From the IMG/VR virus record IMGVR_UViG_3300043436_003709, positions 1 to 47,191 of that record: a DNA stretch of 47,191 nucleotides. One strand, 5' to 3'. The notes beneath the pieces were generated by a model. It searched no databases. It had not been told where the DNA came from and was given only the letters and a program-made list of their open reading frames with translations. Of this stretch, positions 9,613 to 39,727 are shown piece by piece. Source of the stretch: a virus. A program made the position numbers and the translations under genes. Position 1 is the stretch's first letter. Each line of letters starts with the position of its first letter.

Positions 9613-9613
9613 A

Positions 9614-10150: not shown

Positions 10151-10159
10151 ATCCCTGTA

Positions 10160-10786
10160 TTAAAATTGAACTCTCATTCCTGCTCCTGCATGAGGATATT
10201 TTGTATTTTCATACTGGTAGTATATTAAGTTTTTTTGTCTTAATAATCCTCCTTTGTATTCTGATTCTAAATAATATGGACGATCCCTTTTCCAGATATC
10301 CGGTGTTGGTGTACATACAGATTTTCTATTATCCTCTACTACAAATGTAATAGGTAAGTCATGATTTAAACTGTACTTATATGCTTCATGGAATGCTCCT
10401 GTCTCTGCAGACATATCTCCTACCCAGCACCAAACTCTATTAGACTTACCTTGGTGTTTAATTGCTAGAGCAATACCTGCAGCTATGGAAGGAATACCTC
10501 CTACAATGGAGCTACATATAAACTTATACTCAGGAAGATTAACTACCATAGATTTCCCCTCCATAATATTCTCCTTCATTACTTCAGCTGGAATTCCTTT
10601 TAACAGTCCTTGGTAATGGTTTCTCCAAGTGCAGCACACCCAGTCATTCTCTATATCTACATCTTTATATAGTTCAATCATTAAATCTTCATTTCCTGAA
10701 TAAAGATGTATAGGTGCTTTAATCTCACCTCTGTTAAATGAATCTCCAATTTCTACTTCGAACTGGATTAGTTGCTCTTTTACCAT
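10160..10786 (-). CDS. TPP-enzyme alpha-type subunit (E1-alpha-like)
   Basis: 208 residues. The TPP-binding motif is present: G123-D124-M followed 28 residues later by N153 (GDMSAETGAF ... VVEDN). Upstream, NHYQGLLKGIPAE resembles the His-containing loop of E1-alpha (usually HRxHxxxLAxG). It is shorter than pyruvate dehydrogenase E1-alpha (about 320-400 residues). Overlaps the 4,6-dehydratase gene by 7 bp and is followed by the beta subunit. A split, compact TPP enzyme in a phage sugar operon is unusual; a role in branched-sugar synthesis is the best guess. Confidence 0.75.
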   Translation of the reverse strand: MVKEQLIQFEVEIGDSFNRGEIKAPIHLYSGNEDLMIELYKDVDIENDWVCCTWRNHYQGLLKGIPAEVMKENIMEGKSMVVNLPEYKFICSSIVGGIPSIAAGIALAIKHQGKSNRVWCWVGDMSAETGAFHEAYKYSLNHDLPITFVVEDNRKSVCTPTPDIWKRDRPYYLESEYKGGLLRQKNLIYYQYENTKYPHAGAGMRVQF

Positions 10787-11736: not shown

Positions 11737-11756
11737 ACTGTATTTTTTATTAACTA

Positions 11757-12419
11757 TTAGACAATGACATATGGTATTAATTTTGCTCGCTCTTGATATG
11801 TTATATCTGGTTTCATCTTATATAGGTTAATGTTTGTATTTTCAACTAGTAAACATAGTAGTACATCCCCTACCTTACCGTGTATATCTAATCCTACAGC
11901 ATATTGTAAATACTTAAAATAGAACCTTTTATGTATAGCTATACAGTGACATCCTACTAACTGGTGACTTTCTAGATCATAGTTGTTTTGTATTCTAGAA
12001 AATGTTAGTTTCGTGTCAACTACCTCAGCAGTTGCCATATCACCCAGTATTATTATATCCCAATCTGCTGGTAAATTTGCTTGTATGTTGTCAATATTTA
12101 TATTTTTAAATACCGTATCATCATCACATATTACGTAGGACTCGTAGTTATTACTCATTGCGTCTAGGTGAATTGATATACTACTGGCCCAGTTACCTAC
12201 TAGGTATTGATTTGCTGGTACAGGGTAACACTCTGGGCGATATTTTATTTTATATTCTTCAGGTACAAATAAGTCGCCTCGTATTCCTCTATACACTTCG
12301 TACTCTAGTCCGATTAGTTTTGCCGTAGTTTGAAAATGTTCTAATCGTTGTTTTGCATCGGGCACATTTTTTACGTAAATGTGGTTAAATGCTGAGTTTA
12401 TATTTTCTCCTAATGTCAT
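11757..12419 (-). CDS. Family 25 glycosyltransferase
   Basis: 220 residues. The N-terminus (FNHIYVKNVPDAKQRLEHF) and the following EVYRGIRGD are the family 25 (LPS beta-galactosyltransferase) start; CDDDTVFKNI supplies the DxD metal site; HLVG-type and HCIAIHKRFY stretches follow. Members act on lipooligosaccharide or collagen hydroxylysine; the acceptor here is unknown. ATGA overlap with the GT2-GT10 gene upstream places it in the same operon. Confidence 0.85.
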   Translation of the reverse strand: MTLGENINSAFNHIYVKNVPDAKQRLEHFQTTAKLIGLEYEVYRGIRGDLFVPEEYKIKYRPECYPVPANQYLVGNWASSISIHLDAMSNNYESYVICDDDTVFKNINIDNIQANLPADWDIIILGDMATAEVVDTKLTFSRIQNNYDLESHQLVGCHCIAIHKRFYFKYLQYAVGLDIHGKVGDVLLCLLVENTNINLYKMKPDITYQERAKLIPYVIV

Positions 12420-14071: not shown

Positions 14072-15015
14072 TTATTTATACTATAGTATTTTTTATAATT
14101 CTCCTTAGCCGCTTTACTACACTCCTGGTAGAATTCTTCATCGTAACTCAATCTTTCAGCTAACATTGCTGCTTTTTCTACATCCTCTACATCAACTGCT
14201 AGGTCTGGATGACAAAGTCTCTGTGTATCTACTTTTTCATTTCCTATACAAGGTATTCCAAAGTAAGCACAATTTAAGCTAAAAGTTCCAGCTGCTACAG
14301 TCGGCATAAGATGTACGGCATATTTGAATGAGCTTAATTGCTTCATCCAATCTGTCCACATAACTCTTGGTAGATGCTTTACCAATTGATCTTCACCCTC
14401 TCTCATTGCATGAGAAGTCTGTCCCCATATTGGAACTTCAAACCTTTGTGCTACTGTGAAGCTTTCCATACCTCCATACCATCTAGCAAAATTCCCTCCT
14501 ATAATAACCTTTTCTTCTCTAAGAGGTTGAATATCTTGTACTATAGAATCAATCATTAAAGTAGGGATAACGTGCACAGGTACGTTAGGAAACATTCCTT
14601 TATAGTATTTTACATCATGTTCGTTGTGTGCAAAGATACCATCACAAGCTACCATCATGTTAAAGAACCTAACCTGATCGTACATATCATAATCATTCCA
14701 CCACCAGTGAGGTCCTTCTTGAACTATGTATACTTTTTTATTTGCAAGCTTTAATCTCTCTACAGGTTCTTTTATTAAAAGATCACTTACTGGATTTCTA
14801 TCCTCTACAAGTTGGCTTCCTTCGGCACTTAGGAATGTTTTTCCTTTAGGAAAAATAACAAAGATATGATCGTAACCTTCTACTTTTAAGAAATCATGAA
14901 TACAGAAATGATCAGCATTTAGTGCATGCATCCAAGCAAACTCAGTTCGCATGTTAGGATGGTTAGAGGGAATCTTTCCCTCAAAACCCATCTCTGTCAT
15001 AAATGCTATCTTCAT
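14044..15015 (-). CDS. GT-B glycosyltransferase-like protein
   Basis: 323 residues. Starts MKIAFMTEMGFEG and has GT-B character: IFAHNEHDVKYY (end of N-domain), then VHVIPTLM, and a C-domain with LMPTVAAGTFSLNCAYFGIPC, which resembles the acidic/Gly-rich donor loop region of GT4-type enzymes with A-G-T-F in place of the usual EGFG. Substrate unknown. Located 1 nt after the dehydratase gene; part of the glycan operon. Confidence 0.65.
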   Translation of the reverse strand: MKIAFMTEMGFEGKIPSNHPNMRTEFAWMHALNADHFCIHDFLKVEGYDHIFVIFPKGKTFLSAEGSQLVEDRNPVSDLLIKEPVERLKLANKKVYIVQEGPHWWWNDYDMYDQVRFFNMMVACDGIFAHNEHDVKYYKGMFPNVPVHVIPTLMIDSIVQDIQPLREEKVIIGGNFARWYGGMESFTVAQRFEVPIWGQTSHAMREGEDQLVKHLPRVMWTDWMKQLSSFKYAVHLMPTVAAGTFSLNCAYFGIPCIGNEKVDTQRLCHPDLAVDVEDVEKAAMLAERLSYDEEFYQECSKAAKENYKKYYSINKWKSKISLE

Positions 15016-15016
15016 A

Positions 15017-16327
15017 CTATTTGTTAAAGAATTTATCTACGATTGTTCCTATGTACTCTATTTGCTCTAATGTAATAACTGGAGAGCATCCTAGGAAGAA
15101 AGTATCTGTTGTTACTTTTCTCGATACTGGATACTTTTCGATTACTTCTTTTGAATCAATCAAATGAGAGTATCCTGGTTGAAGCATAATATTACCTGCA
15201 AAGTAAGGTCTTGTTTGAATCTTATTTGCTTCTAGGAATTGACAAAATTCAGATCTTGTAAACCCTACTCCGTCTCTAACTGTTAAGGCAACTGCAAACC
15301 AATCTGGATCTGATTTAGCTGTAGCTTTAGGAAGTATAAATTTATCTTCATACTTCTTAAAGATATCAACAATTGCTTTATGATTTCTTCTTCTTAGTAC
15401 TCCGATCTCCTCTAGCTTACCTAACTGAACATTCCCCATTGCTGCTTGTAACTCTGTAGGTTTTAAATTGTATCCGATCTCTTCGTAAGTATATTTGTGA
15501 TCAAATACTTCATTAGGAAGACTTGGTAACCAATTACTAAATCTGATACCACATGAACCACACTCTAAAGCATTTGCTTTACCTTGACAGTAACATCCTC
15601 TACCCCAATCTCTAAAACTTCTTAGTATCTTTTCTAGTTGTGGATCACTACATGCTACAAATCCTCCTTCACCCATTGTAATGTGATGTGCTGGATAGAA
15701 TGAACATGAAGACATTTTACCAAATGATCCTAACATCTTACCATCGTAAGTTGTTCCTAAAGCATCACAACAATCTTCTAACAGAATTAAATCGTATTTG
15801 TTTACAATTTCCATTAATCGATCCATGTTAGGTGGATTGCCCAATACGTGAGCAAATGTAATTATCTTAGCATCCGGATGATCAATGCATGCTTGCTCTA
15901 CTTGATCTAAATCTAGGTTAAGAGATTCTAATTCAATATCAACAAAGATTGGCGTAAAGCCTACCTGAATGGTAGGACTAAGTGTAGCTGGAAATCCAGC
16001 TATTGGAGTAATTACTTTTGTACCTTTTGGAAGGTTTAATCCTCTCTTAGATGTCAGAGCTAACATCATTAATAAATTAGCACTTGAACCGCTATTGACA
16101 ATAACTCCGGTCTTCTGTCCTAGCTTCTTAGGAAACTTTCTTTCAAACATTGCTCCTTCTTTTCCTAGAACTAACCATCCTTCAAGCATAGTCCTAACAA
16201 CTGCTTGAGCTTCCTGGCTATCGAAATAAGGTCCAGCATATTGAACTAAGTCCTCTCCTGCTACCCATTTCTTCTCGCTATCTTTCTTTGTAATATACTC
16301 TTGTACTAAATTTAAAATACTATCCAT
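15017..16327 (-). CDS. rfbH: RfbH/E1-type PMP-dependent nucleotide-sugar 3-dehydratase
   Basis: 436 residues, DegT/DnrJ/EryC1/StrS fold. In place of the catalytic Lys of aminotransferases it has His: SFYPAHHITMGEGG (H214-H215), as in CDP-6-deoxy-hexulose 3-dehydrase (E1, RfbH, DdhC). Cysteines C187-x57-C245-x1-C247 followed by C256/C259 nearly match the E1 [2Fe-2S] pattern C-x57-C-x1-C-x7-C. This enzyme removes the 3-hydroxyl of a 4-keto-6-deoxy sugar using PMP and a ferredoxin-type reductase (E3, not seen here). It indicates 3,6-dideoxysugar chemistry in this operon. GTTATG start context. Confidence 0.85.
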   Translation of the reverse strand: MDSILNLVQEYITKKDSEKKWVAGEDLVQYAGPYFDSQEAQAVVRTMLEGWLVLGKEGAMFERKFPKKLGQKTGVIVNSGSSANLLMMLALTSKRGLNLPKGTKVITPIAGFPATLSPTIQVGFTPIFVDIELESLNLDLDQVEQACIDHPDAKIITFAHVLGNPPNMDRLMEIVNKYDLILLEDCCDALGTTYDGKMLGSFGKMSSCSFYPAHHITMGEGGFVACSDPQLEKILRSFRDWGRGCYCQGKANALECGSCGIRFSNWLPSLPNEVFDHKYTYEEIGYNLKPTELQAAMGNVQLGKLEEIGVLRRRNHKAIVDIFKKYEDKFILPKATAKSDPDWFAVALTVRDGVGFTRSEFCQFLEANKIQTRPYFAGNIMLQPGYSHLIDSKEVIEKYPVSRKVTTDTFFLGCSPVITLEQIEYIGTIVDKFFNK

Positions 16328-16334
16328 AACTAAT

Positions 16335-16958
16335 TTATAAAGTGTCGTAATAATTATTCTGTCTTTCTTGTCTTTGGATTGTTTTTGGATGGTACAGGGA
16401 ATAATCCTCTTCCATTGGTAAAGTTGTATAGGCTTTAAATCCCTCTAACCTCTCATGAACTTTATTTATCCATTTTATCTCAGGAGTATTTCTGTAAACT
16501 CTCCATTGAAAGTCTGGCCAATTAATCCATCCTTCTGAATTTACATTCCAGTTCCATTTCTGGATATGATTCTGTGTAAGTCCTTCTACAGTATTAACTC
16601 TAGGTACCAGTATTACGTCTAGTTCAGGATTTAATTCTAGGATACTTGGTAAGGATTCTATAAGAGGTGTACAAGGAATTTCATCAGCATCTATCTGAAA
16701 GATATAATCTCCTGAACAGTATGTTGTGAGTAAGTTCTTCCAATCTGCAAAATGTCCTTGGAAGGATCCTTTATACCAGTTGAGTTCTCCGTTTACAGAT
16801 TTACTTCTAAGGTATTCTTCAACTCCTTCATCTCCACTACCTTGATCATAAAGTACCACTATTTGATCTTCTTTTCTTTTATTCTTTAAAAGAAATGTAA
16901 TAAGTTTCTGTATTTCCAAAAACTCATCCCTTACTGTTATTGCATAAGTTATTTTCAT
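16335..16958 (-). CDS. Family 2 glycosyltransferase (WaaE/KdtX-like)
   Basis: 207 residues, compact GT-A enzyme: MKITYAITVRDEFLEI at the start, LYDQGSGDEGVEEYL, FQIDADEIP (DxD at about 107), and WINKVHERLEG near the end, which is the conserved WxxxVHE block of WaaE/KdtX-type beta-glycosyltransferases. The ATG is only 3 nt after the -7 box of the promoter at 16962-16992, so its mRNA may be leaderless; the MKITYAITV strand makes a later start unlikely. Confidence 0.8.
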   Translation of the reverse strand: MKITYAITVRDEFLEIQKLITFLLKNKRKEDQIVVLYDQGSGDEGVEEYLRSKSVNGELNWYKGSFQGHFADWKNLLTTYCSGDYIFQIDADEIPCTPLIESLPSILELNPELDVILVPRVNTVEGLTQNHIQKWNWNVNSEGWINWPDFQWRVYRNTPEIKWINKVHERLEGFKAYTTLPMEEDYSLYHPKTIQRQERQNNYYDTL

Positions 16959-16961
16959 ACA

Positions 16962-16992
16962 TTAATATATGAACTTTATTCTTTATCTGCAA
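16962..16992 (-). promoter_or_regulatory. Class I promoter at the head of the glycan operon
   Basis: TTG (16992-16990), 20 bases, TATATTAA (16969-16962). The -33 lies in the last codons of the upstream gene. Only three bases separate the -7 box from the ATG at 16958, implying a leaderless or very short-leader transcript. Confidence 0.75.
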
Positions 16993-17437
16993 CTTCTATC
17001 TCAAAAAATCCTATCATCTCTAAAGCATCTATAAAATCTCTTTGTCCAAACATCTGAGCATTTCTCATATCCATTTTATGTGTTTGACCTTTAGGGAAGT
17101 TTGCTTTTTCTTCCTCTGTAATCTCAATAGCTTTTACTGCAGACCACATCCAGTTATCTTTCGATGTACCGTCTAAGAATACCATTCCTTTTCCTGGAAG
17201 AGTAATTGTGGAAGGAAACCATACTTGACTATCTTTGTCAACATACATTATATCTTTGTAGAGTTCTGGTGCTGATTCTATTGCCTGTACTACAGCAGGA
17301 CTTCCAACTTTCATTACTGATGAGGATGATTTTCCGCATCCAAAACAAAGCCAAGTTGTTAAATCTTTTTCTATTTGCTGTTCATAACATGCATTACTCC
17401 CTCCACAAGGGCAATCCATTAATTGATCTTTTTCCAT
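16976..17437 (-). CDS. Conserved phage zinc-ribbon protein, 153 aa
   Basis: N-terminal C9-P-C11 and C31-F-G-C34 (WLCFGCGKSS) make a zinc ribbon. The rest (ELYKDIMYVD, VWFPSTITLPGKGMVFLDG, THKMDMRNAQMF, DFIDALEMIGFF) matches a hypothetical protein I recall from T4-like cyanophages and marine myoviruses. No function known. It is located between the two glycan sub-blocks and its 3' end contains the -33 of the next promoter. Confidence 0.7.
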   Translation of the reverse strand: MEKDQLMDCPCGGSNACYEQQIEKDLTTWLCFGCGKSSSSVMKVGSPAVVQAIESAPELYKDIMYVDKDSQVWFPSTITLPGKGMVFLDGTSKDNWMWSAVKAIEITEEEKANFPKGQTHKMDMRNAQMFGQRDFIDALEMIGFFEIEVADKE

Positions 17438-17439
17438 TA

Positions 17440-17973
17440 TTATATTTTTTTAGTTATTACGTAATTTCCTTTACTATTCTGGAGATTATATTGATTGTCT
17501 GTGTTCAATTTACTGAACATATTGTAAAAGTAGCTGTATCTGTCGTCCTCAAGTCCGTCACCGTCAAAAGGTGTAAAAGATATCCCACTAACCCTTCCTG
17601 ATCTTAGCAAAGGAGCTATCTCAGTACTTAGAACTTTCTGTAAAAATAAAGCTTTTAGCAACCTATTAGGATCTTTATCATTCCATTTGTACTGCTGCAA
17701 TGTATTTGGTGCGTTTAAATTTCCAAATTTTAATTCGTGGTATTTACTATCAGGATCATACACTAACCTAACTTCAAAAGGAGTGCTTGTTTCATCCCCT
17801 ACAAACTCCATAGGCTTAAAAACTCTTACGTCTCCTATATGAGCTGTCTTTACTGTCCATTGAGTAATTTCATTTAGAATATATTGTTTGGTAACCTCTT
17901 TCCTTTCAGCTAAGTTTGTATATTTACCTAATGTTTGATAAATCTCAGTTGCTAGTACTGTCAAGGCTCTCAT
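17440..17973 (-). CDS. Conserved phage hypothetical protein, 177 aa
   Basis: C-terminal block GISFTPFDGDGLEDDRYSYF followed by NMFSKLNTDNQYNL and YVITKK resembles a hypothetical protein found in T4-like marine phages. The N-terminus is helical (VLATEIYQTLGKY). No catalytic motif visible. Spaced 2 nt from the gene after it and directly abutting the glycosyltransferase gene upstream. Confidence 0.6.
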   Translation of the reverse strand: MRALTVLATEIYQTLGKYTNLAERKEVTKQYILNEITQWTVKTAHIGDVRVFKPMEFVGDETSTPFEVRLVYDPDSKYHELKFGNLNAPNTLQQYKWNDKDPNRLLKALFLQKVLSTEIAPLLRSGRVSGISFTPFDGDGLEDDRYSYFYNMFSKLNTDNQYNLQNSKGNYVITKKI

Positions 17974-19269
17974 CTATTCTATTTTTTTTAATTGTGGTAA
18001 TTGTATCTTCTTTAATTGAGGTAATTTTAACTGTACCTGCTTTGGAAATTCAGGAATATGCTGTGTTAGAAGGTTATTTAGCGTCTCTCTCATCTTTTCA
18101 TACGAGAATTGTGTTCTACTCTTATGTCCTTGTCTTTTAGCTAAAGGTTTCCATTTACCGTAATTGTCGTATATATCTTTAAACGCCTGCCCTACTTGAA
18201 CTGGATCTGCAGAAAACCATTGACTCTCTCTAAGTAACATCTTATCGACTGCTGCTGACGGATGTACGTTAGTAAGAGTTCCTCCTACGTACTTTACAAA
18301 TTCCTTATCAAGAAAATCCATGTGCCCTGACCAAGCTGATGCTATTATTGGTTTATTTACTAAGCTAAACTCTAGTAAAGGTCTTCCAAATCCTTCTCCT
18401 TTAGTTAGAGAAACCATTGCTTTTACCTTACCGTAGTTATATAGTTCGTTAATCTCTGTATCGGTCATATCACCGTGGAGTAAGTATATGTTTGGTAAAT
18501 CACCTTTAACAGTCTTTCTTATTGCATCTATCCTATCTAGTAGTTCTTCTCTATCCATAATAGATGTTCCTGATCCTGCTTGTACTTTTAATAGTAGGGC
18601 TGGTTTTTTTCCTCTAGGTTTATTTTTAAATGTTTCTAAGAAAGCTTTTATAGTATATCCAATATTCTTTCTATCCTCTCCTAAAGCTCCTGGTAGCCAG
18701 TGTCCTACTGCTAGAAAACAAAACATCTCATCTATCTCTTCGAATTTAAGCTTTGTAGGAAATGCAAGTGGACAATATTTTTCGATATCAACTCCTTCGA
18801 ATAGTACTTCAACCTTTGTACTTAGCTCTACTGTTCCTGTTACTTGTCCTGTTCTATTGTCTTGCATATTGAATTTAGACTCTTCAAACACCTTCTTACC
18901 ATGCTCAGAAGATACCAATACTAAATCCATATTATTACATCCCTGAATCCAGGAAGGATCACAAAGTGTTGTTTCGATACCGGCTGTTACTCCGATGTTA
19001 TATTTACCGACCTTTTGAAATTCATTTGGTACTGTAATCTGAATCCAGATATCTGGCTGTTGAGTTAGTTGTGGGATGATTCTAGAAGACAAAGATTCAT
19101 TGTTATGATCTTTTAAGTATCCAAATCTAGTATTACCCCATCTCTGGGAAAGTATTTTTACATCGTACTTATCTAAATCGATAATTGATTGTACAAAGTC
19201 TCTTGCTCTTGCTCCATATCCTGAGTAAGTGTCAACTGGGCAGCTTACTACTAATGTTGGTTTGCTCAT
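17974..19269 (-). CDS. Family 4-like glycosyltransferase
   Basis: 431 residues, GT-B fold. N-domain begins TLVVSCPVDTYSGYGARAR; C-domain has FLAVGHWLPGALGEDRKNIG, YLLHGDMTDTEINELY and the donor-phosphate signature TKGEGFGRPLLEFSLVNKPI (E-x7-E type) at about 290-310. The C-terminal 20 residues contain a tandem duplication of QLPQLKKI, possibly recent slippage. Family 4 enzymes are retaining transferases; substrate unknown. GTTATG start. Confidence 0.85.
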   Translation of the reverse strand: MSKPTLVVSCPVDTYSGYGARARDFVQSIIDLDKYDVKILSQRWGNTRFGYLKDHNNESLSSRIIPQLTQQPDIWIQITVPNEFQKVGKYNIGVTAGIETTLCDPSWIQGCNNMDLVLVSSEHGKKVFEESKFNMQDNRTGQVTGTVELSTKVEVLFEGVDIEKYCPLAFPTKLKFEEIDEMFCFLAVGHWLPGALGEDRKNIGYTIKAFLETFKNKPRGKKPALLLKVQAGSGTSIMDREELLDRIDAIRKTVKGDLPNIYLLHGDMTDTEINELYNYGKVKAMVSLTKGEGFGRPLLEFSLVNKPIIASAWSGHMDFLDKEFVKYVGGTLTNVHPSAAVDKMLLRESQWFSADPVQVGQAFKDIYDNYGKWKPLAKRQGHKSRTQFSYEKMRETLNNLLTQHIPEFPKQVQLKLPQLKKIQLPQLKKIE

Positions 19270-19271
19270 AA

Positions 19272-20714
19272 CTAGTATAGTAATTTATGTGTTATACGTT
19301 TTTTAGGCCTGTCTGTAATCTTATGTAATTCAAATCTTGCTCTTGGAACAAACTTTTCAAATGATTCATCCATTGCATCGATTATATTCTCGCACATCTG
19401 TCTTGCTGACATTCCTGATTCATCAGATGTTACCCATTCTCTTGCTTTCAATCCTTTAGCATCTCTTTCTTCTTTTGGCATATTATATGCCTGTAAAATA
19501 GCTTTTGCTACATCTTCTGGTGCACATCTATCATCGAAAATATAAGGAGTTGGAACTGAACCTACTAGTGATATGTTTGAAGGAAATACTGGGATAGCCC
19601 ACTCTCCACACTCCTTATAAGTGCCTCTATGGTTGGAAGGGAAATCAGGAGTAAAATCAATCCACTTACCATTTTCGTCTGTAAATCTCATCTGATCTTG
19701 CATACCTCCGGTTACATTGGCAATAATCATTCTACCTGCCATCATAGTCTCTGTCAGAGATAATCCCCATCCTTCGTTTGAAGTAATTAGTAATCCTATA
19801 TCAGCTGCATTGTAAAGTAAATTCATCTGAGGAGTGTCTAACTTATCTTGAGAGAAAAATACATTTGTATTTTCATCACATAAAGCTTCTCTTACTGCAT
19901 AAAGATCTGTACCGTTTTCATCGACAGCCTGTGTATGCATTACTAAAGCACATTTCTTAGCTTTCTCTTCTCCAATCATATCACAGAATAGCTTATAAGA
20001 AAATATTACATCTCCTGGAGATTTTCTTCTGATGTTTCTAGAATTAAATACTACTACGAAGTCAAATTCCTTTCCTTGAAACATATTCTTTTTGAACTCT
20101 TGAAGTAGTTCAAAATTCTCATGACCTTCTCTAATAGGGAAGAAATATTTATCATTTATTCCATGAGGAACATATTTAATAATTTTATCTTTAGCTGACT
20201 CTCCTAAAACTATTTCGTTGATATTTTTAGTTTGTTTTGAGATAGCCATTAACAAGTCACATGATTCGTAATAAGATTTGTTATATAAAGGTGCTGGAAG
20301 ATCATCCCAGATGTTTAGGTAGTGAATTGGAATTTCATTTCTGATCTCTCTTTCAATTTCAAACAACCAAGTCCAATATCTTGGATCAGTGAAGATAAAA
20401 ATAGCATCTGGTTTTTCTTGAGCTACTAAGTTTCTTATTTGCATTGCATCTCCATATCCATTATTGGGAAGTACTCTTACCCAGGCATCTTCAATACCGG
20501 CGAATTTATTTACATCTGAGGATATATCAAGACCTTTTCCTACTTCAGGGTGATTGATTGCTGCTCCAAGATTTATCCAATTAAAGTGATGTGCTGTTCC
20601 TACAACAATCTCTCTTGCCATAGTTGCGATACCGGAATGCATCCTAATATCATCGCATAACAAAAGAATCTTTTTACGATCCTCTTTCTTAACATAACGA
20701 AATTTTTCTTTCAT
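19272..20714 (-). CDS. Family 4-like glycosyltransferase, 480 aa
   Basis: GT-B enzyme. N-domain: ILLLCDDIRMHSGIATMAREI, the GxGG-like acceptor loop replaced by HSGIA. C-domain: VVFNSRNIRRKSPGDVIFSY (start), NVFFSQDKLDTPQMNLLYNA and ITSNEGWGLSLTETMMAGR, with the Glu pair of the donor site. C-terminal tail is basic. 2 nt before the next glycosyltransferase, so these two form a pair. Acceptors unknown. Confidence 0.85.
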   Translation of the reverse strand: MKEKFRYVKKEDRKKILLLCDDIRMHSGIATMAREIVVGTAHHFNWINLGAAINHPEVGKGLDISSDVNKFAGIEDAWVRVLPNNGYGDAMQIRNLVAQEKPDAIFIFTDPRYWTWLFEIEREIRNEIPIHYLNIWDDLPAPLYNKSYYESCDLLMAISKQTKNINEIVLGESAKDKIIKYVPHGINDKYFFPIREGHENFELLQEFKKNMFQGKEFDFVVVFNSRNIRRKSPGDVIFSYKLFCDMIGEEKAKKCALVMHTQAVDENGTDLYAVREALCDENTNVFFSQDKLDTPQMNLLYNAADIGLLITSNEGWGLSLTETMMAGRMIIANVTGGMQDQMRFTDENGKWIDFTPDFPSNHRGTYKECGEWAIPVFPSNISLVGSVPTPYIFDDRCAPEDVAKAILQAYNMPKEERDAKGLKAREWVTSDESGMSARQMCENIIDAMDESFEKFVPRARFELHKITDRPKKRITHKLLY

Positions 20715-26127: not shown

Positions 26128-28070
<1,943 letters not shown>

Positions 28071-32344: not shown

Positions 32345-33268
32345 CTATTGTCTAAGAGTTTTTTCTAACCTACATCTTACGTCCGGGAAGAATGTAGGAA
32401 TTAAGTGTTTATGTGTAGCTCTTATTGGATTAATATCTAAACCTCCCCTTCTTGTGTACATGGCACATACCATCAACTCTTCTGGAGAGTATGCTTTCAA
32501 TAAATGCATAAAGACCATTTCAACAATTTCTTCATGGAAATGTGATACCTGTCTGTGACTTACAATATACTTTGCTAATGATTGTAAATTAGGAACAACT
32601 CCTGCTTTAGGCTTGATATGAATAAATACATCACCCCAGTCTGGTTGATTTGTTACTCTACAATTTGATCTTAAAAGATTTGATTGTACTTTTATTTCTC
32701 CTATTTCGAAGTCATCATCTACTTCGTCTGCTTCCAATTGTGTAGCATCTGAATGATAAGAAGTAAATTCAATTGCATTTAAGTCAACCAAAGCATCCAA
32801 TGGTGCATATCCTCTAAAGGCATAGCTTGGAGTATGGTCTGAGGTAAACATCTCTACTTCTACTTTTGTTTGTAGTAAGTCGGATAAATCTCTTTTTACT
32901 CTGTCTTTTAAAATTGCAATACATTCATGATCTGTATCTCCCATTTGAGTCATATTAAATGAATTCAAATACAATTTAATTGATTTAGACTCTACGTGTA
33001 GTTTTGAATCTGCTGGATACCAGATCTTTAACATTCCAACTACTGGAAGTCCTTTTGTAGTGATTGCTGATACTTCGTATGCATTCCAAACATCTCCTCC
33101 AACGAATGGTAAGTTGTTGTCATCTATTCCGTATGCTTCTCTGTTTAAGTATCTAGGAATTTCTACTAATAGACTTGGATCATAAGTATCTTTATACCCT
33201 TCTCCTCCTACTTTACCGAGATGTTTTCCTGCGATTGCAATTACTGCTTCTTGATTTAATTCTGCCAT
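32345..33268 (-). CDS. queF: QueF, NADPH-dependent preQ0 reductase
   Basis: 307 residues, the two-domain (E. coli type) enzyme. The QueF motif ESKSIKLYLNSFNM is present, and the second half has LLRSNCRVTNQPDWGDVFIH (catalytic Cys), then SHRQVSHFHEEIVEMVF (active Glu-His) and YTRRGGLDINPIRA. It reduces 7-cyano-7-deazaguanine to 7-aminomethyl-7-deazaguanine (preQ1). Directly upstream of genes for kinase, formyltransferase and DpdA-like protein, so it probably feeds DNA modification rather than tRNA queuosine. Slightly longer than E. coli QueF. Confidence 0.9.
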   Translation of the reverse strand: MAELNQEAVIAIAGKHLGKVGGEGYKDTYDPSLLVEIPRYLNREAYGIDDNNLPFVGGDVWNAYEVSAITTKGLPVVGMLKIWYPADSKLHVESKSIKLYLNSFNMTQMGDTDHECIAILKDRVKRDLSDLLQTKVEVEMFTSDHTPSYAFRGYAPLDALVDLNAIEFTSYHSDATQLEADEVDDDFEIGEIKVQSNLLRSNCRVTNQPDWGDVFIHIKPKAGVVPNLQSLAKYIVSHRQVSHFHEEIVEMVFMHLLKAYSPEELMVCAMYTRRGGLDINPIRATHKHLIPTFFPDVRCRLEKTLRQ

Positions 33269-33269
33269 A

Positions 33270-33794
33270 TTATTTTATATAGTTTAATATTTGTTCAACT
33301 CTTTGTTTAGGACTTCCTGTTACTGTTAAATAATCTCCTCCTAATGTCTTAATTACCTCTAAATTACTTCTAAATTGATTATCAATTTTAGTTCTCCATT
33401 CCTCATTTACACTTCTTACTCCATCGTCTACTGATCTAAACTCAATAGGAAAATAGATATAATGTGTATATTGATCTTTAACTCTTGTCCAAGTATCTAG
33501 AATATAATCATATGCACTATTGGATAAATTATCCATATAAGTAGAATATACTACTAAATCTAAATAACATCTATCCAATATCACATCTTTAGGACAAAGC
33601 AATGCTTCTAAGTGGAAAGAAGATATAGCAAGCTGTGTTTCAGAAGTTCCTTGTTCGTTAATAGGAAATCCATATTTACCAACTGTTCTTGTTGATTCGT
33701 TTATAAAATTAAACTTTGGTAATCTATCTTTTAATAATTCATAAACAGTAGTCTTTCCTACTGATGATGCTCCTACTAATGCTACTCTTTTCAT
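33270..33794 (-). CDS. P-loop kinase (AAA_28/NadR-like)
   Basis: I start at the ATG 33794 (MKRVALVGASSVGKTTVYEL), 2 nt after the upstream stop, dropping nine residues of the longer frame. 174 residues. Walker A GASSVGKTT, then ESTRTVGK, LDRCYLDLVVYS (the D-R of the lid-nucleoside-kinase type). It resembles AAA_28/NadR-type and deoxynucleoside-kinase-like P-loop proteins. Substrate unknown; placed between queF and the formyltransferase gene, so a role in base or nucleotide modification is plausible. Confidence 0.75.
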   Translation of the reverse strand: MKRVALVGASSVGKTTVYELLKDRLPKFNFINESTRTVGKYGFPINEQGTSETQLAISSFHLEALLCPKDVILDRCYLDLVVYSTYMDNLSNSAYDYILDTWTRVKDQYTHYIYFPIEFRSVDDGVRSVNEEWRTKIDNQFRSNLEVIKTLGGDYLTVTGSPKQRVEQILNYIK

Positions 33795-33796
33795 AA

Positions 33797-34324
33797 CTAA
33801 TTTTTTAAAAAGTCTACCCAAAGACTTACTGATATACTGTGTAATATACGAAATACTTCTCCAATCTCCAACCCTTTTATAGAAACTTTTCTACTACGAA
33901 GTATCTCTCCTTCGTCAACTCCTTCTGTTACTCTATGAATAACACATCCGGAAGATTCTAATCCTAAGTCGAAAGCCTTTTGCTGAGGATCTTTTCCTTT
34001 TAATATCTCGTGTTCTGTAATTAATCCTGGATGTCCGTTATAGATTTCAAATCGATTACAGATATTCGGAGGCATAATTCGTAACCATCCATGTAGAGTT
34101 ATAATAGGATCTTTGTAGTTAGAAAGTATTTGTAAGAGTTCTTCTTCTGTAGGTTTATTTTCTACAAAGATTAAATGCCTATCCTTTAAAGCTGGATGAA
34201 TCTTTCTTATGTGCTCTGGTCTTTTATTTGTAATTATCAGATCAGGCCATCTTCCTAGTAGCTTTGATACTTCTACAATCTCTGATCCTGTTTGACTAAA
34301 AAATGCTATATGTATCCTATTCAC
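33797..34324 (-). CDS. PurN-type formyltransferase
   Basis: 175 residues. Starts with GTG (34324); no ATG is nearby and the codon before it is a stop. The catalytic triad of formyltransferases is visible: YNGHPG (Asn, His) and VTEGVDEGEIL (Asp), with GWLRIMPP ahead. It resembles GAR transformylase but is in a modification-gene run; the acceptor is more likely the aminomethyl group of preQ1 (see findings). Uses 10-formyl-tetrahydrofolate in the known family. Eight nt after the DpdA-like gene. Confidence 0.75.
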   Translation of the reverse strand: MNRIHIAFFSQTGSEIVEVSKLLGRWPDLIITNKRPEHIRKIHPALKDRHLIFVENKPTEEELLQILSNYKDPIITLHGWLRIMPPNICNRFEIYNGHPGLITEHEILKGKDPQQKAFDLGLESSGCVIHRVTEGVDEGEILRSRKVSIKGLEIGEVFRILHSISVSLWVDFLKN

Positions 34325-34332
34325 CTACTACC

Positions 34333-35133
34333 TTATACTTTCTTTCCATTTACAAGCCAATTAAACTTATGAATATTCCCCTGAACTTTGTTTAGGTCTA
34401 TCTTATCTGCAGGATAGTTTATGAGTTCAAATAATTTTTGTGAATCTTTATGCCATAATCCCATCTCTCCATAGGATGTTCCTTTTATTCCTGCTACCAC
34501 TGGATTGGAAGTATCTAGAGAGTATATCCATTTATAATCTGAGTAGAAGGAGAATTCTAAGGCAATCGAACAGCCTAATAAGTGGTGTTTCTTTTTCTCA
34601 TTTATAATACCGTCTCTCAATAAATCTCCCAGTAGCTTAACCCTTCCCATACACCAGCTTACCAGTTTATTAGGATGAGGAAAAGTCTGCGTATAATACG
34701 AATAGTCAAATGAAATTGCAATCATATCTACATTTGCAATCTTATCCATATACTCGTAACATGTCTTAATCTGCTCGTAAGTCTTTCCTTGAACAACTCC
34801 TATTTTCTTTCCTGGGAGATTTTTATGTTTGTTATTCCATTCTGTCATTTGTTGTACGGTCTTCTTTGTATCTTCTAAAGCATCTGGAACTATATACCAA
34901 TCTGGTTTTAGTTCTAATACCCAACCTGCAAACTTCTCTGCATCAAAAGCTTCTTCTAATTCAAAAATAGAATTATCTAAAATAATTTCCCTACCTGCTT
35001 CTTTAGCTTGTTTAAATAAAGCTAAATACTCAGGATCTTCTTCCATTAAATGTACTAATGCATAATCTCCGTCAGTAATTTTTTGAACCTCCTTAAATAT
35101 ACTTTTCGGTGCTTCGTGGTAAATTTTAATCAT
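34333..35133 (-). CDS. dpdA: DpdA-like DNA guanine transglycosylase (TGT family)
   Basis: 266 residues. Stretches IILDNSIFELEEAF, WYIVPDALEDTKKT and IGVVQGKTYEQIKTCY, then AISFDYSYY and SLDTSNPV follow the order of phage transglycosylases that swap guanine for 7-deazaguanine in DNA; the two Asp residues (VPD, SLD) are the likely catalytic pair. The Zn-binding Cys/His cluster of tRNA-guanine transglycosylase is missing, as in DpdA. Its neighbours (queF, folE2, queD, queE) complete the pathway. Symbol given for family resemblance. Confidence 0.75.
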   Translation of the reverse strand: MIKIYHEAPKSIFKEVQKITDGDYALVHLMEEDPEYLALFKQAKEAGREIILDNSIFELEEAFDAEKFAGWVLELKPDWYIVPDALEDTKKTVQQMTEWNNKHKNLPGKKIGVVQGKTYEQIKTCYEYMDKIANVDMIAISFDYSYYTQTFPHPNKLVSWCMGRVKLLGDLLRDGIINEKKKHHLLGCSIALEFSFYSDYKWIYSLDTSNPVVAGIKGTSYGEMGLWHKDSQKLFELINYPADKIDLNKVQGNIHKFNWLVNGKKV

Positions 35134-35326
35134 TTTCTTGGGCTAAATTATCTAAATCTTCAAATATTCCTTCCATTTGTGCTGTAATACTGTTTAACGT
35201 CTCCTGTAATTGCTCATCAATAGACAGTTCGATTGCTTTGTATGCTACAGACAAGGGAACCATATCTGTATGTAAAGTATCAATATATACTTTATTCTTT
35301 TCTAAAAAGTCAATTGCTTCTTGCAT
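35126..35326 (-). CDS. Hypothetical protein, 66 aa
   Basis: Acidic helical protein (AIDFLEKNKVYIDTLHTDMV, AQMEGIFEDLDNLAQEN). No family recognised. Its stop overlaps the DpdA-like start by 8 bp; 1 nt after the MazG-like gene. Possibly a small partner. Confidence 0.55.
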   Translation of the reverse strand: MQEAIDFLEKNKVYIDTLHTDMVPLSVAYKAIELSIDEQLQETLNSITAQMEGIFEDLDNLAQEND

Positions 35327-35327
35327 C

Positions 35328-35990
35328 TTATTCTCCTGTTAGTTGTTTTAAATACGGTTTCTGAATTTCCTTGTCTGTGAAAAATTGTTTTAGGTTCGGT
35401 CTAAAATAGTTTACATTTTTCATTACTTTTCTATCTCTTGAACGGTACACTACATAAAAATCTCCAACTTTTTCGTAATGACATTCCTCACCTTGTTCAC
35501 TCGATCTTTGAATGACAGTTGCTTGAGCTTCTTCTTCTGTTTTGCAAGCTTTAGACAAATTTGACGCTTGTACTTCTTGATATGCCGGCCATATCTTATC
35601 CTTAAGGCCATGTAACATAGTACCGTTCCCAGTGGCAACATAAGTAATATCGCACAAAGCATCCAGAACCTCGATGATGTCTCCTTTCTCGCAAGCTTCT
35701 CTATATTCTTCCAATTCCTCAAGGATGAAATTGTATACAAATTCCCATTCTTTTCTTTCTGGTACGGTTGGTTCATAATTATTTGGTTTGCCCATTACGG
35801 CATTAAATTCTTCTACTTCGTCAATAAAAGGTACTGAAATTCTTTTTAGATCTCTAATTTCATTTTTACGAATACTTATTTCCTCTATAACATCATCTCC
35901 AAGTTCAATCTTGGACATCATTACAAGGTCTACAATTTGTGAGTGGAGTAATTCTAATAACTCATCTTGCCTTTGTTCTAATTTAGTCAT
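35328..35990 (-). CDS. MazG-like nucleotide pyrophosphohydrolase
   Basis: Start moved from 36047 to the ATG at 35990 (MTKLEQRQDELLELL) because the promoter -7 box is at 36005-36012. 220 residues. FILEELEEYREACEKGDIIE and LDALCDITYVATGNG contain the acidic EELxE...ExxD...D residues of all-alpha NTP-PPases, then YQEVQASNLSKACKTEEEA. Such enzymes hydrolyse (d)NTPs to NMP and PPi; in a modification operon it may remove unwanted nucleotides. C-terminal ~60 residues are extra. Confidence 0.75.
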   Translation of the reverse strand: MTKLEQRQDELLELLHSQIVDLVMMSKIELGDDVIEEISIRKNEIRDLKRISVPFIDEVEEFNAVMGKPNNYEPTVPERKEWEFVYNFILEELEEYREACEKGDIIEVLDALCDITYVATGNGTMLHGLKDKIWPAYQEVQASNLSKACKTEEEAQATVIQRSSEQGEECHYEKVGDFYVVYRSRDRKVMKNVNYFRPNLKQFFTDKEIQKPYLKQLTGE

Positions 35991-36004
35991 AACTTTATTT
36001 TTTA

Positions 36005-36035
36005 TTAATATAAGAAATTGGCTCCGAAGAGCCAA
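36005..36035 (-). promoter_or_regulatory. Class I promoter for the MazG-DpdA-QueF operon
   Basis: TTG (36035-36033), 20 bases, TATATTAA (36012-36005), 14 nt before the ATG at 35990. Its TTG is in the hairpin at 36018-36035. Confidence 0.8.
36018..36035 (-). terminator. UUCG hairpin, terminator of DUF4494 gene
   Basis: Minus-strand stem TTGGCTC / GAGCCAA with loop TTCG, followed by TTTC. Weak T-tract. It is the same design as at 6662-6679. Confidence 0.6.
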
Positions 36036-36039
36036 CCTA

Positions 36040-36237
36040 TTATTCAATTACTTTTAGAATCTTTGATTGATTAACTCCTACTACTGTGAAGTTAGACTCT
36101 CCTTCGAACTCTTTATAGATCTTTGCTTCAGCATCTGTTGCTGAGATTGCATCTACTAAGTATAATTCTTTTACTCTTTGGATACGACCTCTGTCGTTCT
36201 CATGCTCCAACTGCACTGTTACTTGCCAATAATTCAT
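36040..36237 (-). CDS. DUF4494 protein, 65 aa
   Basis: MNYWQVTVQLEHENDRGRIQ followed by VKELYLVDAISATDAEAKI is the DUF4494 family pattern, a small protein of Bacteroidota and their phages. No known function; the order beta-strand then helix is typical. Between FolE2 and the promoter for the MazG gene. Confidence 0.8.
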   Translation of the reverse strand: MNYWQVTVQLEHENDRGRIQRVKELYLVDAISATDAEAKIYKEFEGESNFTVVGVNQSKILKVIE

Positions 36238-36249
36238 TTTTATTTGTTT

Positions 36250-37248
36250 TTAGTATATTAATGATTTTAAATCTGCTACTGAAATTAGATCATCAAAACC
36301 GTTCTGCACCCCTTTTGTTATTACTGATATCGCATCATGTGAGTGTAGTGATTCGTTATGAGATGCAATAACTTTAAAGTCTTTAATTTCTTTTACCTTA
36401 TCTAATTTCTCATAAAGAAGTCTTACTGCATCTTCTACAAATTTAGTATTTGCTGCATTTAGTTCTGCAAATGCCTGTTCATCTTCTCTTTTACAGAACA
36501 CTACTGTCTCTGTCTGTAAAGCTTCTTGACATAAGTCTCTTAAATCCTCTATCCAGAAAGTATTATCTGTCTTAATAGATATTCTTGCTACAGACCTTTG
36601 TGAGTGCGGTGTTGCGTAAACCTCTCTACTATCCATTGCGTAAAGGGACAATTCTGTCGAACAGGGACAAGTCGATGAATAAACAAAGTCAAAATGAAGT
36701 ATATTATCACAAACGCCTTCTCTATTCATAATACTTTCAAGAGTAACTTTGTAATATTGCCACCCACCATTCTTACTGCCATCTTTTTTTACAGATCGCA
36801 AGGACTCCTGCCAAATTCTATAATTAAACGTAAGAAGTAAGTGTGCTTCATAAGAACCTAAAGTATCTCTATAATGTTGCAATATCTCTGGTAGCTTATC
36901 TATATCGAAAGTCTCATCTTTATATTCATAGAACGATCGCAAAATTCTACTCATATTGATTCCTTTCTTAACTCCCTCTAAAGAAACCGTACCTACTACT
37001 GAGGTTTCTATTTCATTAACTCCTCCATCTTTCCTCTGTACTTTTAATGGAAGTTTAAAATTAGAAATACCTACTCTCTCTATAGGTACTTTTGCTCCTT
37101 TAATTAAATCTCCGTTCTGTAGGTCTGGCATATTATCCAGGTACTCTTCAGAAGGAATAAAGACTCTATCATAGGAGGTATTTATTGCATACTCCTTTGT
37201 TGTGTTTTTTTCAATTCCTGTAAGTGCTACTTTAAGTTTGTTTTCCAT
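36250..37248 (-). CDS. folE2: GTP cyclohydrolase FolE2 (type IB)
   Basis: 332 residues. PIERVGISNFKLPL, GVKKGINMSRIL, STCPCSTELS (C194, C196) and the HSQRS stretch match FolE2, the alternative metal-dependent GTP cyclohydrolase that makes 7,8-dihydroneopterin triphosphate, the first step toward 7-deazaguanine and folate. It is 332 residues, longer than the usual 250-280, mostly from N- and middle insertions. First step of the modification operon with QueD and QueE to the right. Confidence 0.9.
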   Translation of the reverse strand: MENKLKVALTGIEKNTTKEYAINTSYDRVFIPSEEYLDNMPDLQNGDLIKGAKVPIERVGISNFKLPLKVQRKDGGVNEIETSVVGTVSLEGVKKGINMSRILRSFYEYKDETFDIDKLPEILQHYRDTLGSYEAHLLLTFNYRIWQESLRSVKKDGSKNGGWQYYKVTLESIMNREGVCDNILHFDFVYSSTCPCSTELSLYAMDSREVYATPHSQRSVARISIKTDNTFWIEDLRDLCQEALQTETVVFCKREDEQAFAELNAANTKFVEDAVRLLYEKLDKVKEIKDFKVIASHNESLHSHDAISVITKGVQNGFDDLISVADLKSLIY

Positions 37249-37288
37249 TTTTTAATGTTTTTTATGGAGGTTCTACGACTCCTTTTTA

Positions 37289-37319
37289 TTAATATAACAT
37301 TTTTTATTCTATCTTGCAA
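37289..37319 (-). promoter_or_regulatory. Class I promoter for folE2
   Basis: TTG (37319-37317), 20 bases, TATATTAA (37296-37289). The TTG directly follows the TAG stop of the phosphoribosyltransferase gene (TAGTTG). Confidence 0.8.
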
Positions 37320-37715
37320 CTACTTTTTTAAATAATCTTGAACAGCATCTGAATCTTTTCTCTCCCATGGATATACAATCCAATCTGATCCTACTTCTTT
37401 TGTGTAAAAATCAGGAGTAAATGATGCTGTTTTCTTATAGTGGAGTGTTGCAGTATATCCTGCTACAATCTTTTTTAACGTCTCTCCTGTATCGCAGATG
37501 TCATCTATTACCAAAGTATCTTTATTGATTTTCGTTACATAAGGAATGTTTAGCTTATGTGAGATCATTACGGCCGGTATTAATCCTCCTCTTTCAATTC
37601 CTGTGATTGATTTAATTTGTACGCCTGATGATGCTAGTGTATGGCATAGATCTTCAACAAGAATATTTATATCATCCCAACTTAAGTATACTTTGTGTCC
37701 TACCTTTAGTGCCAT
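37320..37715 (-). CDS. Phosphoribosyltransferase (purine-type)
   Basis: 131 residues. TLVIDDICDTGETL is the PRPP-binding loop with DDxxDTG; ITGIERGGLIPAVMI is the PPi loop of hypoxanthine/xanthine-guanine type I PRTases; C-terminal VGSDWIVYPWERKD matches the Gpt-like hood end. It would convert a purine base plus PRPP to the nucleoside monophosphate. The base it serves is unknown; a phage role in base salvage is inferred. Confidence 0.8.
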   Translation of the reverse strand: MALKVGHKVYLSWDDINILVEDLCHTLASSGVQIKSITGIERGGLIPAVMISHKLNIPYVTKINKDTLVIDDICDTGETLKKIVAGYTATLHYKKTASFTPDFYTKEVGSDWIVYPWERKDSDAVQDYLKK

Positions 37716-37719
37716 ATTA

Positions 37720-38013
37720 TTAAATTCTTGCGATCGTAATTCCTTCTGCTCCTACGATTTTTAGTTCAGAAATAATCTCATCTCCTGATACTTGTGGGTC
37801 TGTTGACTCTAATACGTAGTTTACTAATTCTTCGATAGATACTTTATCTTTAAAACCTGCCTTACCTGAGTCACTTGGAATTAATACTAACTCTAAGTTA
37901 AGGTCTTGATTAAATTGTAATTTATAATCCCAGATGTAAAACCCATCTGCTTTTGGATATGATTTTGATAATTCTCTATCTCCTGCTAAATTAATTAAAT
38001 CTCTTAATGTCAT
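37720..38013 (-). CDS. Hypothetical protein, 97 aa
   Basis: Soluble protein starting MTLRDLINLAGDRELSKSY with an acidic middle (LNLELVLIPSDSGKAG). No family recognised. Spaced 4 nt from the phosphoribosyltransferase gene and part of the same run. Confidence 0.55.
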   Translation of the reverse strand: MTLRDLINLAGDRELSKSYPKADGFYIWDYKLQFNQDLNLELVLIPSDSGKAGFKDKVSIEELVNYVLESTDPQVSGDEIISELKIVGAEGITIARI

Positions 38014-38024
38014 AGTAATTTGTG

Positions 38025-38210
38025 TTATTTAATTGAATATTTCTGTTTTCCGTCTATTGATTGGGCTGTAATACCCCCGTTTGTTATACTTGTTAGTTCT
38101 AGGAAGCAGCTAGTTTTAATTAAATGCCTTACTTGTGCTGTTTCCATTTGTCCTTTCTTCCACAAGTAGTGGAGTACTTTTAATGTGTCAAATTCGTTTG
38201 GCTTTCTCAT
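38025..38210 (-). CDS. Hypothetical protein, 61 aa
   Basis: Start taken at the ATG 38210 (MRKPNEFDTLKVLHYLW), 1 nt after the queE stop; the longer frame to 38234 would overlap queE. Looks like a small winged-helix or helical protein (TAQVRHLIKTS, GGITAQSIDGKQKYSI) but no family can be named. Confidence 0.55.
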   Translation of the reverse strand: MRKPNEFDTLKVLHYLWKKGQMETAQVRHLIKTSCFLELTSITNGGITAQSIDGKQKYSIK

Positions 38211-38211
38211 A

Positions 38212-39048
38212 TTACACGTACCTATTTTTACCAAACATCATAATATGAAGCCTAGGAGCAAATCTCCAACCTCTCTTCAATGCTTGTTCTGCTATCCATC
38301 CTGTTCTACTGTTCAGAGTATTAACATCTACTCCTTCAGGCATCAAGCATATATCCGATGGTTCAAATCCAGTTAACTGACTTAGTATCTCCTCTATCTC
38401 AATAATGTCTTGATCTGTTGCTACAACAAATTTTAATTGAAAGTCAGTTAAATACTTTTTACTTCCGTCAATATAAGATTGAATTACTGGAATGTTAATT
38501 CTTAATCTCTCATGTTTCTCAGCCCACTTCTCGTTGTACTTAATTCCAGTTCCTTCCAGATTGGCTTGGTGAGGAGTTGAAGTAGATAATTTAGGTGACA
38601 TTGAAACTAAGTCTGTGTGTTGTGCTATCTTATCACTAAAAATAGTTGCGTTTGTTTCAATAGTTGTATGATAACCTAGAGTCTGTAGTTTATCTAACAA
38701 TTCCTCTAATGCTTCAGTTTGCATTGTAGGTTCTCCTCCTGAAATAACTATGTGTTTGATTTTTTGTTGTAAAGTATTTTCTACAACTATTTGAATAATT
38801 TCGTCAATCTCCATTTTATTCTTTTCAGGATTATGAGAAGAATAAGGTGTATCACATGGTGATCCTTTCCCATCCAATCCAACCCAAGCGCATCTTAAAT
38901 TACATGCTGAGGTTCTAATGAATAGGCAAGCTGTTCCTGTTAATTTTCCTTCTCCTTGAAAAGTACCTGCATACTTAAACCCTGTTGAATCATTTGTGAG
39001 GTTATCCTTTATGGGAAATATTCCTCCTTGTACTAAATTTATTTGCAT
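38212..39048 (-). CDS. queE: QueE, 7-carboxy-7-deazaguanine synthase (radical SAM)
   Basis: 278 residues. GTFQGEG near residue 28 is the QueE start motif. Radical-SAM Cys: C49-x3-C53 (ACNLRC) and C65 (GSPCDT), an unusual x11 spacing before the third Cys. VISGGEPTMQTE is the SAM/Gly-rich strand. The C-terminus (DICLMPEGV, LHIMMFGKNRYV) matches QueE. The enzyme rearranges 6-carboxytetrahydropterin to CDG. Longer than E. coli QueE (223 residues), largely because of the cysteine-loop insertion and C-terminal part. Confidence 0.85.
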   Translation of the reverse strand: MQINLVQGGIFPIKDNLTNDSTGFKYAGTFQGEGKLTGTACLFIRTSACNLRCAWVGLDGKGSPCDTPYSSHNPEKNKMEIDEIIQIVVENTLQQKIKHIVISGGEPTMQTEALEELLDKLQTLGYHTTIETNATIFSDKIAQHTDLVSMSPKLSTSTPHQANLEGTGIKYNEKWAEKHERLRINIPVIQSYIDGSKKYLTDFQLKFVVATDQDIIEIEEILSQLTGFEPSDICLMPEGVDVNTLNSRTGWIAEQALKRGWRFAPRLHIMMFGKNRYV

Positions 39049-39054
39049 TTTTAT

Positions 39055-39276
39055 TTATTTTGTTTCTTTTACTTCATAAAAAAACTGTCCGTCTGGAGCT
39101 AGTACGAATGTCTTAATGGTAGTGCTTTCTTTTCCTTCTTTATTTAAAATATCAGTAAAAGCAAATATTAATTTATCTCCTACCTTTAGTTCATTACCTC
39201 CATTGTAGTACCTGTGATGAAGTTTTGGTAAAGCTTCTTCTGTTACTTCTATTAGAAACTCTAATCTACTCTCCAT
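39055..39276 (-). CDS. Hypothetical protein, 73 aa
   Basis: Start placed at the internal ATG at 39276 (MESRLEFLIEVTEEAL), giving an 11-bp overlap with queD; the longer frame (39297) would overlap by 32 bp. Soluble, with a beta-rich centre (GDKLIFAFTDI) and a DGQFFYEV tail. No family recognised. Confidence 0.5.
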   Translation of the reverse strand: MESRLEFLIEVTEEALPKLHHRYYNGGNELKVGDKLIFAFTDILNKEGKESTTIKTFVLAPDGQFFYEVKETK

Positions 39277-39727
39277 ATATTGCTGAGTTTTTACCATGTT
39301 CTTTAAATTCTACACTCACCACTCTTACTCTACCTTCTGTTTCTATTTTAATAAATTCAGATACTTTATCATAGATAAATTTAGCAAATTGTTCTGCTCC
39401 TGTGGCTGGGATTATTCTTAATTGGATGATTCTGTCTTTCCACATTTCTTTAAAATTTTCTAAATATGGATCATCTTCTGCTATAATTGTAGTGTGATCA
39501 AACATATTATCCATCCATTGTTTTGGATTCATACCGTCAATAGTGTTCTTAGCTCTTTTCATTCCTCCAAAATCCCATACCCAGTTTCTCTCATCTAGGT
39601 CTCCTTCAAAGACAATTTTAAAAGAAATGCCATAACCATGCAGGAATTGACAATGAGTGCCATCTGCTCTCCATTGACGAAATACTGTAGAGTATCCATC
39701 AAATACTTTTGTTGATTGAAATTTCAT
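39266..39727 (-). CDS. queD: QueD-like 6-carboxytetrahydropterin synthase
   Basis: 153 residues. C26 and H30 in THCQFLHGYGISF form the catalytic Cys and a metal His; WVWDFGGMK, FDHTTII and PATGAEQFAKFIYD and the C-terminal EHGKNSAIY align with 6-pyruvoyl/6-carboxy-tetrahydropterin synthase. It differs from canonical QueD in having HGY instead of HGH and no FxAAH motif near the start, so metal binding may differ. Converts dihydroneopterin triphosphate to 6-carboxytetrahydropterin for QueE. Confidence 0.75.
   Translation of the reverse strand: MKFQSTKVFDGYSTVFRQWRADGTHCQFLHGYGISFKIVFEGDLDERNWVWDFGGMKRAKNTIDGMNPKQWMDNMFDHTTIIAEDDPYLENFKEMWKDRIIQLRIIPATGAEQFAKFIYDKVSEFIKIETEGRVRVVSVEFKEHGKNSAIYGE

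Follow-up and report, generated by a model that had tools for sequence, protein, structure and literature searches.

The 7-deazaguanine gene cluster and its closest relatives

IMG/VR virus record IMGVR_UViG_3300043436_003709 (47,191 bases, analysed whole and referred to here as the window) carries a cluster of 7-deazaguanine DNA modification genes, all on the minus strand. In the order of transcription, these are queD, queE, a phosphoribosyltransferase-like gene, folE2, a MazG-like gene, dpdA, a formyltransferase gene, an AAA_28 kinase gene, and queF (Table 1). An earlier note on this DNA had proposed a pathway ending in formylated preQ1, and we consider it probable, at roughly 85%, that formylated preQ1 is inserted in the phage DNA through the action of a DpdN-type formyltransferase and DpdA. 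The co-occurrence of FolE2, QueD, QueE, QueF, and a DpdA-like protein on which that proposal was built was borne out by Pfam, PHROGs, and fold comparisons, with each protein encoded by an intact open reading frame (ORF).

The window, 47 kb long, represents part of the genome of a Flavobacterium-type phage related to Flavobacterium phage vB_FspM_immuto_2-6A (immuto; NC_055915, 160 kb, Immutovirus), the nearest isolate, with which the block is syntenic. Gene order is identical in the two, and the proteins of the window are 84% (formyltransferase), 83% (the annotated DpdA), 81% (QueF), and 96% (polymerase) identical to those of immuto. Immuto and dozens of IMG/VR contigs share this gene order, and the clustering is therefore not due to chance. 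Scans of the window with Rfam detected no families, and a tRNA gene search of the window found none.

Differences from immuto were seen among the genes for preQ0 synthesis. The QueE of the window is 29% identical to that of immuto and 88% identical to that of locus L181 (L-numbers denote the fetched loci of relatives used in the neighbourhood comparison), whereas most of its neighbours are 81–96% identical to their immuto counterparts; judged from these sequences, queE has been replaced in place. The position of folE2 is occupied in immuto and in most relatives by the unrelated FolE1 (such as that at 9359-10069 of L001; PF01227, 9e-45), and the fetched loci included 10 with FolE2, 149 with FolE1, and none with both. 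A non-homologous enzyme has apparently been exchanged in place here more than once. As the earlier note had stated, queC was absent from all 47,191 nucleotides of the window, and the wider search that it had called for located the gene in immuto (18622-19287), where it lies upstream of queD at a distance of about 11 kb, and in 9/9 long relatives examined. Since about 7.5 kb of the window is left past queD, queC would fall past the end of the window, and it is most likely missing because the fragment ends there. Of the preQ0 genes of a Dpd system (folE, queD, queE, and queC), three thus lie in the window and the fourth in immuto and these nine relatives.

Table 1. Genes of the modification cluster, with window coordinates
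Feature	Coordinates	Strand	Evidence
queF, bimodular NADPH-dependent preQ0 reductase (preQ0 to preQ1), 307 aa	32345..33268	-	Pfam QueF_N 7e-34, QueF 3e-21
AAA_28 / thymidylate-kinase-like P-loop kinase	33270..33821	-	AAA_28 2e-13; phrog_2107 1e-24
PurN-fold formyltransferase (DpdN type), predicted preQ1-amine formylation, 175 aa, GTG start	33797..34324	-	Formyl_trans_N 6e-14
DpdA-type DNA-guanine transglycosylase, 266 aa	34333..35133	-	tRNA-guanine transglycosylase (TGT) fold; 83% to immuto DpdA
MazG-like (PRA-PH) nucleotide pyrophosphohydrolase	35328..36047	-	PF01503 1e-9; immuto hydrolase in same position
folE2, GTP cyclohydrolase IB	36250..37248	-	PF02649 (GCHY-1/FolE2) 1e-65; NF010200 261 bits vs cut-off 215
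Small phosphoribosyltransferase-like protein	37320..37715	-	PF00156 4e-6; phrog_8995 3e-18
queE, radical-SAM 7-carboxy-7-deazaguanine synthase	38212..39048	-	Radical_SAM 5e-10; phrog_2076 (QueE-like) 2e-50; TIGR03365 6e-21
queD, 6-carboxytetrahydropterin synthase	39266..39727	-	PF01242 (PTPS) 6e-14; phrog_2389 (QueD-like) 1e-39

The formyltransferase and its linkage to dpdA and queF

The formyltransferase resembles PurN, the glycinamide ribonucleotide (GAR) transformylase, in fold and in its catalytic residues. Its structural model (predicted local distance difference test [pLDDT] score 94) had PurN 4s1n as the top PDB match (template modelling score [TM] 0.83), and N96, H98, and D137, the catalytic triad of 10-formyl-tetrahydrofolate-dependent formyltransferases, were invariant in 108/108 distinct relatives. 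Such likenesses, together with the occurrence of PurN-like genes in other phages, would also fit an auxiliary purine-synthesis PurN that raised host purine supply, in which case the phage DNA would carry dPreQ1. The acceptor region, however, differs from that of PurN. The GxGSN-type loop of PurN binds the GAR phosphate; the corresponding residues in the window family read QTGSE, with Glu in all 108 relatives and Asn in three control PurNs, and a private, nearly invariant LKGKDPQ motif stands where these controls have PurN sequence. Moreover, the protein scored 54.2 bits with the NCBIfam PurN equivalog, far under the cut-off of 150.1. By these sequence measures, the enzyme is not PurN despite its PurN fold. 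Since the phosphate-binding Asn is exchanged for an acid, the loop suggests an acceptor without phosphate at this site, and the free base preQ1 is mildly favoured over a nucleotide as the acceptor. The SQTGSE, NGHPG, and LKGKDPQ marks should separate preQ1 formyltransferases from PurN and allow mis-annotated genes to be renamed.

Genomic setting further distinguishes this family from PurN. Linkage was counted in 93 distinct formyltransferase ORFs, which came from searches seeded with the same family and, in many cases, from closely related contigs, such that the counts describe linkage and not independent events. A dpdA gene lay within 8 kb of the formyltransferase in 82/82 ORFs with more than 1.5 kb upstream (81 under a tighter limit), and queF lay within 2.5 kb in 73 of the 75 whose downstream flank exceeded 3 kb; this is the linkage to dpdA and queF that marks DpdN. 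By comparison, the PurN-like controls from S-SKS1 and an Acinetobacter record adjoin purine genes, and that from P-SSM2 is distant from any annotated dpdA. With the loop, the private motif, and the low equivalog score, this setting makes an auxiliary PurN very unlikely. We also considered whether the enzyme might be a sugar N-formyltransferase that works for the aminosugar and glycosyltransferase genes clustered at 7.6–20.7 kb, given that sugar N-formyltransferases were among the structural matches and that a DegT aminotransferase and glycosyltransferases are encoded in the window. In essentially every relative, however, the gene has dpdA on one side and queF on the other, and in the window it is some 13 kb away from the sugar genes; we judge this function to be exceedingly improbable. 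Linkage and motifs were the grounds for rejecting both alternatives. The assignment of the gene to the preQ1 pathway, which the earlier note had offered as its own inference, is thus supported by the sub-cut-off PurN score, the distinctive acceptor loop, and the linkage to DpdA and QueF.

The association with QueF also appears to be directional. KVP40-type phages carry QueF, and no match to the window-type formyltransferase was found when they were searched; the dependence is therefore one-way, from formyltransferase to QueF. Near-constant company of QueF for the formyltransferase, and not the reverse, is what would be expected of an enzyme acting on preQ1. Loci with queF but without nearby dpdA (L117, L119, L122, L126, L128, and others) were examined as counter-examples and set aside, two longer contigs carrying both genes elsewhere and the rest being fragments. 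The family itself is widespread in viral data, with at least 564 relatives in IMG/VR; the bacterial genomes yielded one relative, in a Clostridiales metagenome-assembled genome (MAG), which is probably phage DNA.

Proposed route to a formylated base in phage DNA

QueF of the window is of the two-domain bacterial type. It matched Vibrio cholerae QueF (3bp1) with an E value of 8e-48, with conservation of ESKSxKLYLNS, SNCxxTNQPDWG, and FHE, and it keeps the NADPH motif ESKSxK and the catalytic Cys, Asp, His, and Glu, as was also seen in a second alignment that included an Escherichia coli sequence. The bimodular nitrile-reductase type, with these residues, supports the contention of the earlier note that the route leads to preQ1 rather than preQ0. 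Alternatively, the protein might act as an archaeal QueF-L, making the end product an archaeosine-type base and not preQ1. QueF and QueF-L are hard to tell apart by sequence in phages (Hutinet et al., PMC6884629), and the score of the window protein lies under the QueF equivalog cut-off (see below). However, the bimodular architecture, NADPH motif, and catalytic residues are those of bacterial QueF, tested phages with such genes had mainly dPreQ1 (PMC6884629), and the tailoring enzyme, as a formyltransferase, needs an amine acceptor, all of which render QueF-L activity highly improbable. Consistent with a route through preQ1, dPreQ1 has been found in the DNA of phage Dp-1, which bears DpdA and a QueF homologue (Hutinet et al., PMC6884629).

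Searches of Pfam, NCBIfam, and PDB with the sequence of the DpdA-like protein returned no match. Its AlphaFold model (pLDDT 92, predicted TM [pTM] 0.90) gave tRNA-guanine transglycosylases as 50 of the 50 best PDB matches (best E value 2e-8, TM ~0.6), and D53, D84, and D207 were among the invariant residues. The fold search and the invariant Asp residues together identify the protein as the TGT-fold DpdA of a Dpd system. Identity to homologues from Campylobacter phages was 39%. One of these phages, CP220, resembles the window in having a homologous DpdA (gp056) followed directly by a homologous kinase (gp057) and differs from it in that no match to the window-type formyltransferase was found. 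In 2023, Cui et al. are said to have linked the DpdA3 subfamily to full guanine replacement, and we take DpdA3 to include the CP220-type DpdA; if this subfamily does include the CP220 type and does go with full replacement, guanine replacement in the window phage may be extensive. CP220 itself belongs to a group of phages for which a high level of dADG modification has been reported (cited in PMC6884629).

In the proposed pathway, GTP would be converted to preQ0 by FolE2, which would catalyse the first step, QueD, QueE, and QueC, the last encoded just beyond the fragment. QueF would then reduce preQ0 to preQ1, yielding a primary amine to which the DpdN-type PurN-fold enzyme would add a formyl group from 10-formyl-tetrahydrofolate, either on the free base or, after insertion, in DNA. 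The TGT-fold DpdA would exchange DNA guanine for the modified base. This route is predicted to yield 2'-deoxy-7-(formylamino)methyl-7-deazaguanosine, a nucleoside expected to protect the DNA against restriction.

Cui et al. (2023, Nucleic Acids Research) reportedly detected 2'-deoxy-7-(formylamino)methyl-7-deazaguanine as a component of phage DNA and gave the name DpdN to the formyltransferase that they predicted for it. The published example is presumably the immuto formyltransferase; this fits a search of INPHARED, in which near-full-length matches to the window-type enzyme came from immuto records only. The DpdN/fdPreQ1 pathway, as reported, shares with that of the window a formyltransferase, QueF, DpdA, and the same predicted base. 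The pathway type is thus already known, and the inference of the earlier note was a good one but not new. Compared with the immuto-type pathway, that of the window has folE2 for folE1 and a queE of another lineage. A pathway widespread in phages thereby gains a member with folE2.

Several observations weigh against formylated preQ1 as the end product. QueF reached 267.3 bits with the NCBIfam TIGR03138 equivalog, short of the cut-off of 293.45, and although this is still its best family, the name QueF consequently rests on motifs and the best-family match. No queF was found near the formyltransferase in loci L059, L188, and L294 (two fragments and one MAG). Furthermore, the scheme gives no part to the kinase, the MazG-like protein, or the phosphoribosyltransferase-like protein, and base exchange as known has no need of a kinase. 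In L059 (9232-10513) and L294 (786-2196), dpdA and the formyltransferase gene immediately precede a gene for DNA polymerase A, and the record yielded no queF; preQ1 might be supplied by the host in these two cases.

Variation between dpdA and queF, and neighbouring genes

A new part of this analysis is the identification of three dpdA loci that lack the formyltransferase and hold other proteins in its slot. When counting was started from dpdA, 92 distinct loci had 3.5 kb or more of downstream sequence, and the formyltransferase was present in 89 of them; the three exceptions retain the kinase and queF, and no formyltransferase was found in their contigs, which are fragments. The slot in L081/L082/L079 holds a 508-aa FkbH-GNAT protein (TIGR01686, 151 bits, above the cut-off; GNAT, 3e-11), which is clearly an enzyme of acyl transfer, and a methylmalonyl-CoA-epimerase-like protein. 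That in L257 holds a kinase with a weakly matching C-terminal GNAT-like domain (E value 0.002, below the cut-off), and that in L281 an amidoligase-like protein (E value 0.02) and a GNAT-like protein (Pfam E value 0.003; phrog_1249, 8e-4), both of them weak matches. PDB sequence searches with the slot proteins encoded at 6123-7079 of L257 and at 7009-8055 and 8557-9012 of L281 gave no match, and the relatives found for these proteins were either the same contig or near-identical copies. No acyltransferase was recognised in formyltransferase-bearing slots in a Pfam scan limited to some cluster representatives.

Tentatively, and with the odds somewhat against it, the position between dpdA and queF may be one at which enzymes that tailor the preQ1 amine are exchanged for one another, with three lineages carrying new N-acyl-preQ1 bases (e.g., acetyl, glyceroyl, or aminoacyl). 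The pattern consists of one strong and two weak cases and was noticed post hoc rather than predicted, and it is offered as a lead, not a result. If it is true, preQ1 in phage DNA would offer an amine to which several kinds of amide cap could be attached, and each swap would name a candidate enzyme and product. An analogue is the carboxyl handle of carboxymethylcytosine, to which glycine is attached in phage S-B43 (PMC12783734).

Other extra ORFs in the 107 distinct slots formed small clusters of nucleases, homing-type endonucleases, a ferredoxin, an ornithine-cyclodeaminase-like protein, and unknowns. The ornithine cyclodeaminase/mu-crystallin homologue (Pfam, 5e-70) lies beside the formyltransferase in L178 (1164-2093) and L031. 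Recurrent guests of the cluster are non-specific nuclease, SNase-like, and homing-type (GIY-YIG-like) genes (L242 8525-9139, L216 9042-9413, and L082 6146-6871).

The earlier note had placed a kinase and a MazG-like enzyme on either side of the formyltransferase. The kinase gene does lie between the formyltransferase gene and queF, but dpdA separates the formyltransferase gene from the MazG-like gene, which is located further upstream. A kinase was found near the formyltransferase in 68/75 loci, and CP220 gp057 (L221 6813-7355) matched the kinase-family profile at 2e-54; the kinase thus accompanies the DpdA type of the window even in a phage with no formyltransferase match. The MazG-like and phosphoribosyltransferase-like genes are conserved across the immuto group, and the MazG-like ORF possibly starts further in, its immuto counterpart being 174 aa long.

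Elsewhere in the window, phage GroEL and GroES genes adjoin the cluster (26128-28070), with GroEL 96% identical to that of immuto. The sugar cluster, at 7622-20714, encodes glycosyltransferases, a GDP-mannose-dehydratase-like epimerase, the DegT aminotransferase, and a split thiamine-diphosphate E1/transketolase pair; it is partly common to immuto and could decorate virions or DNA.

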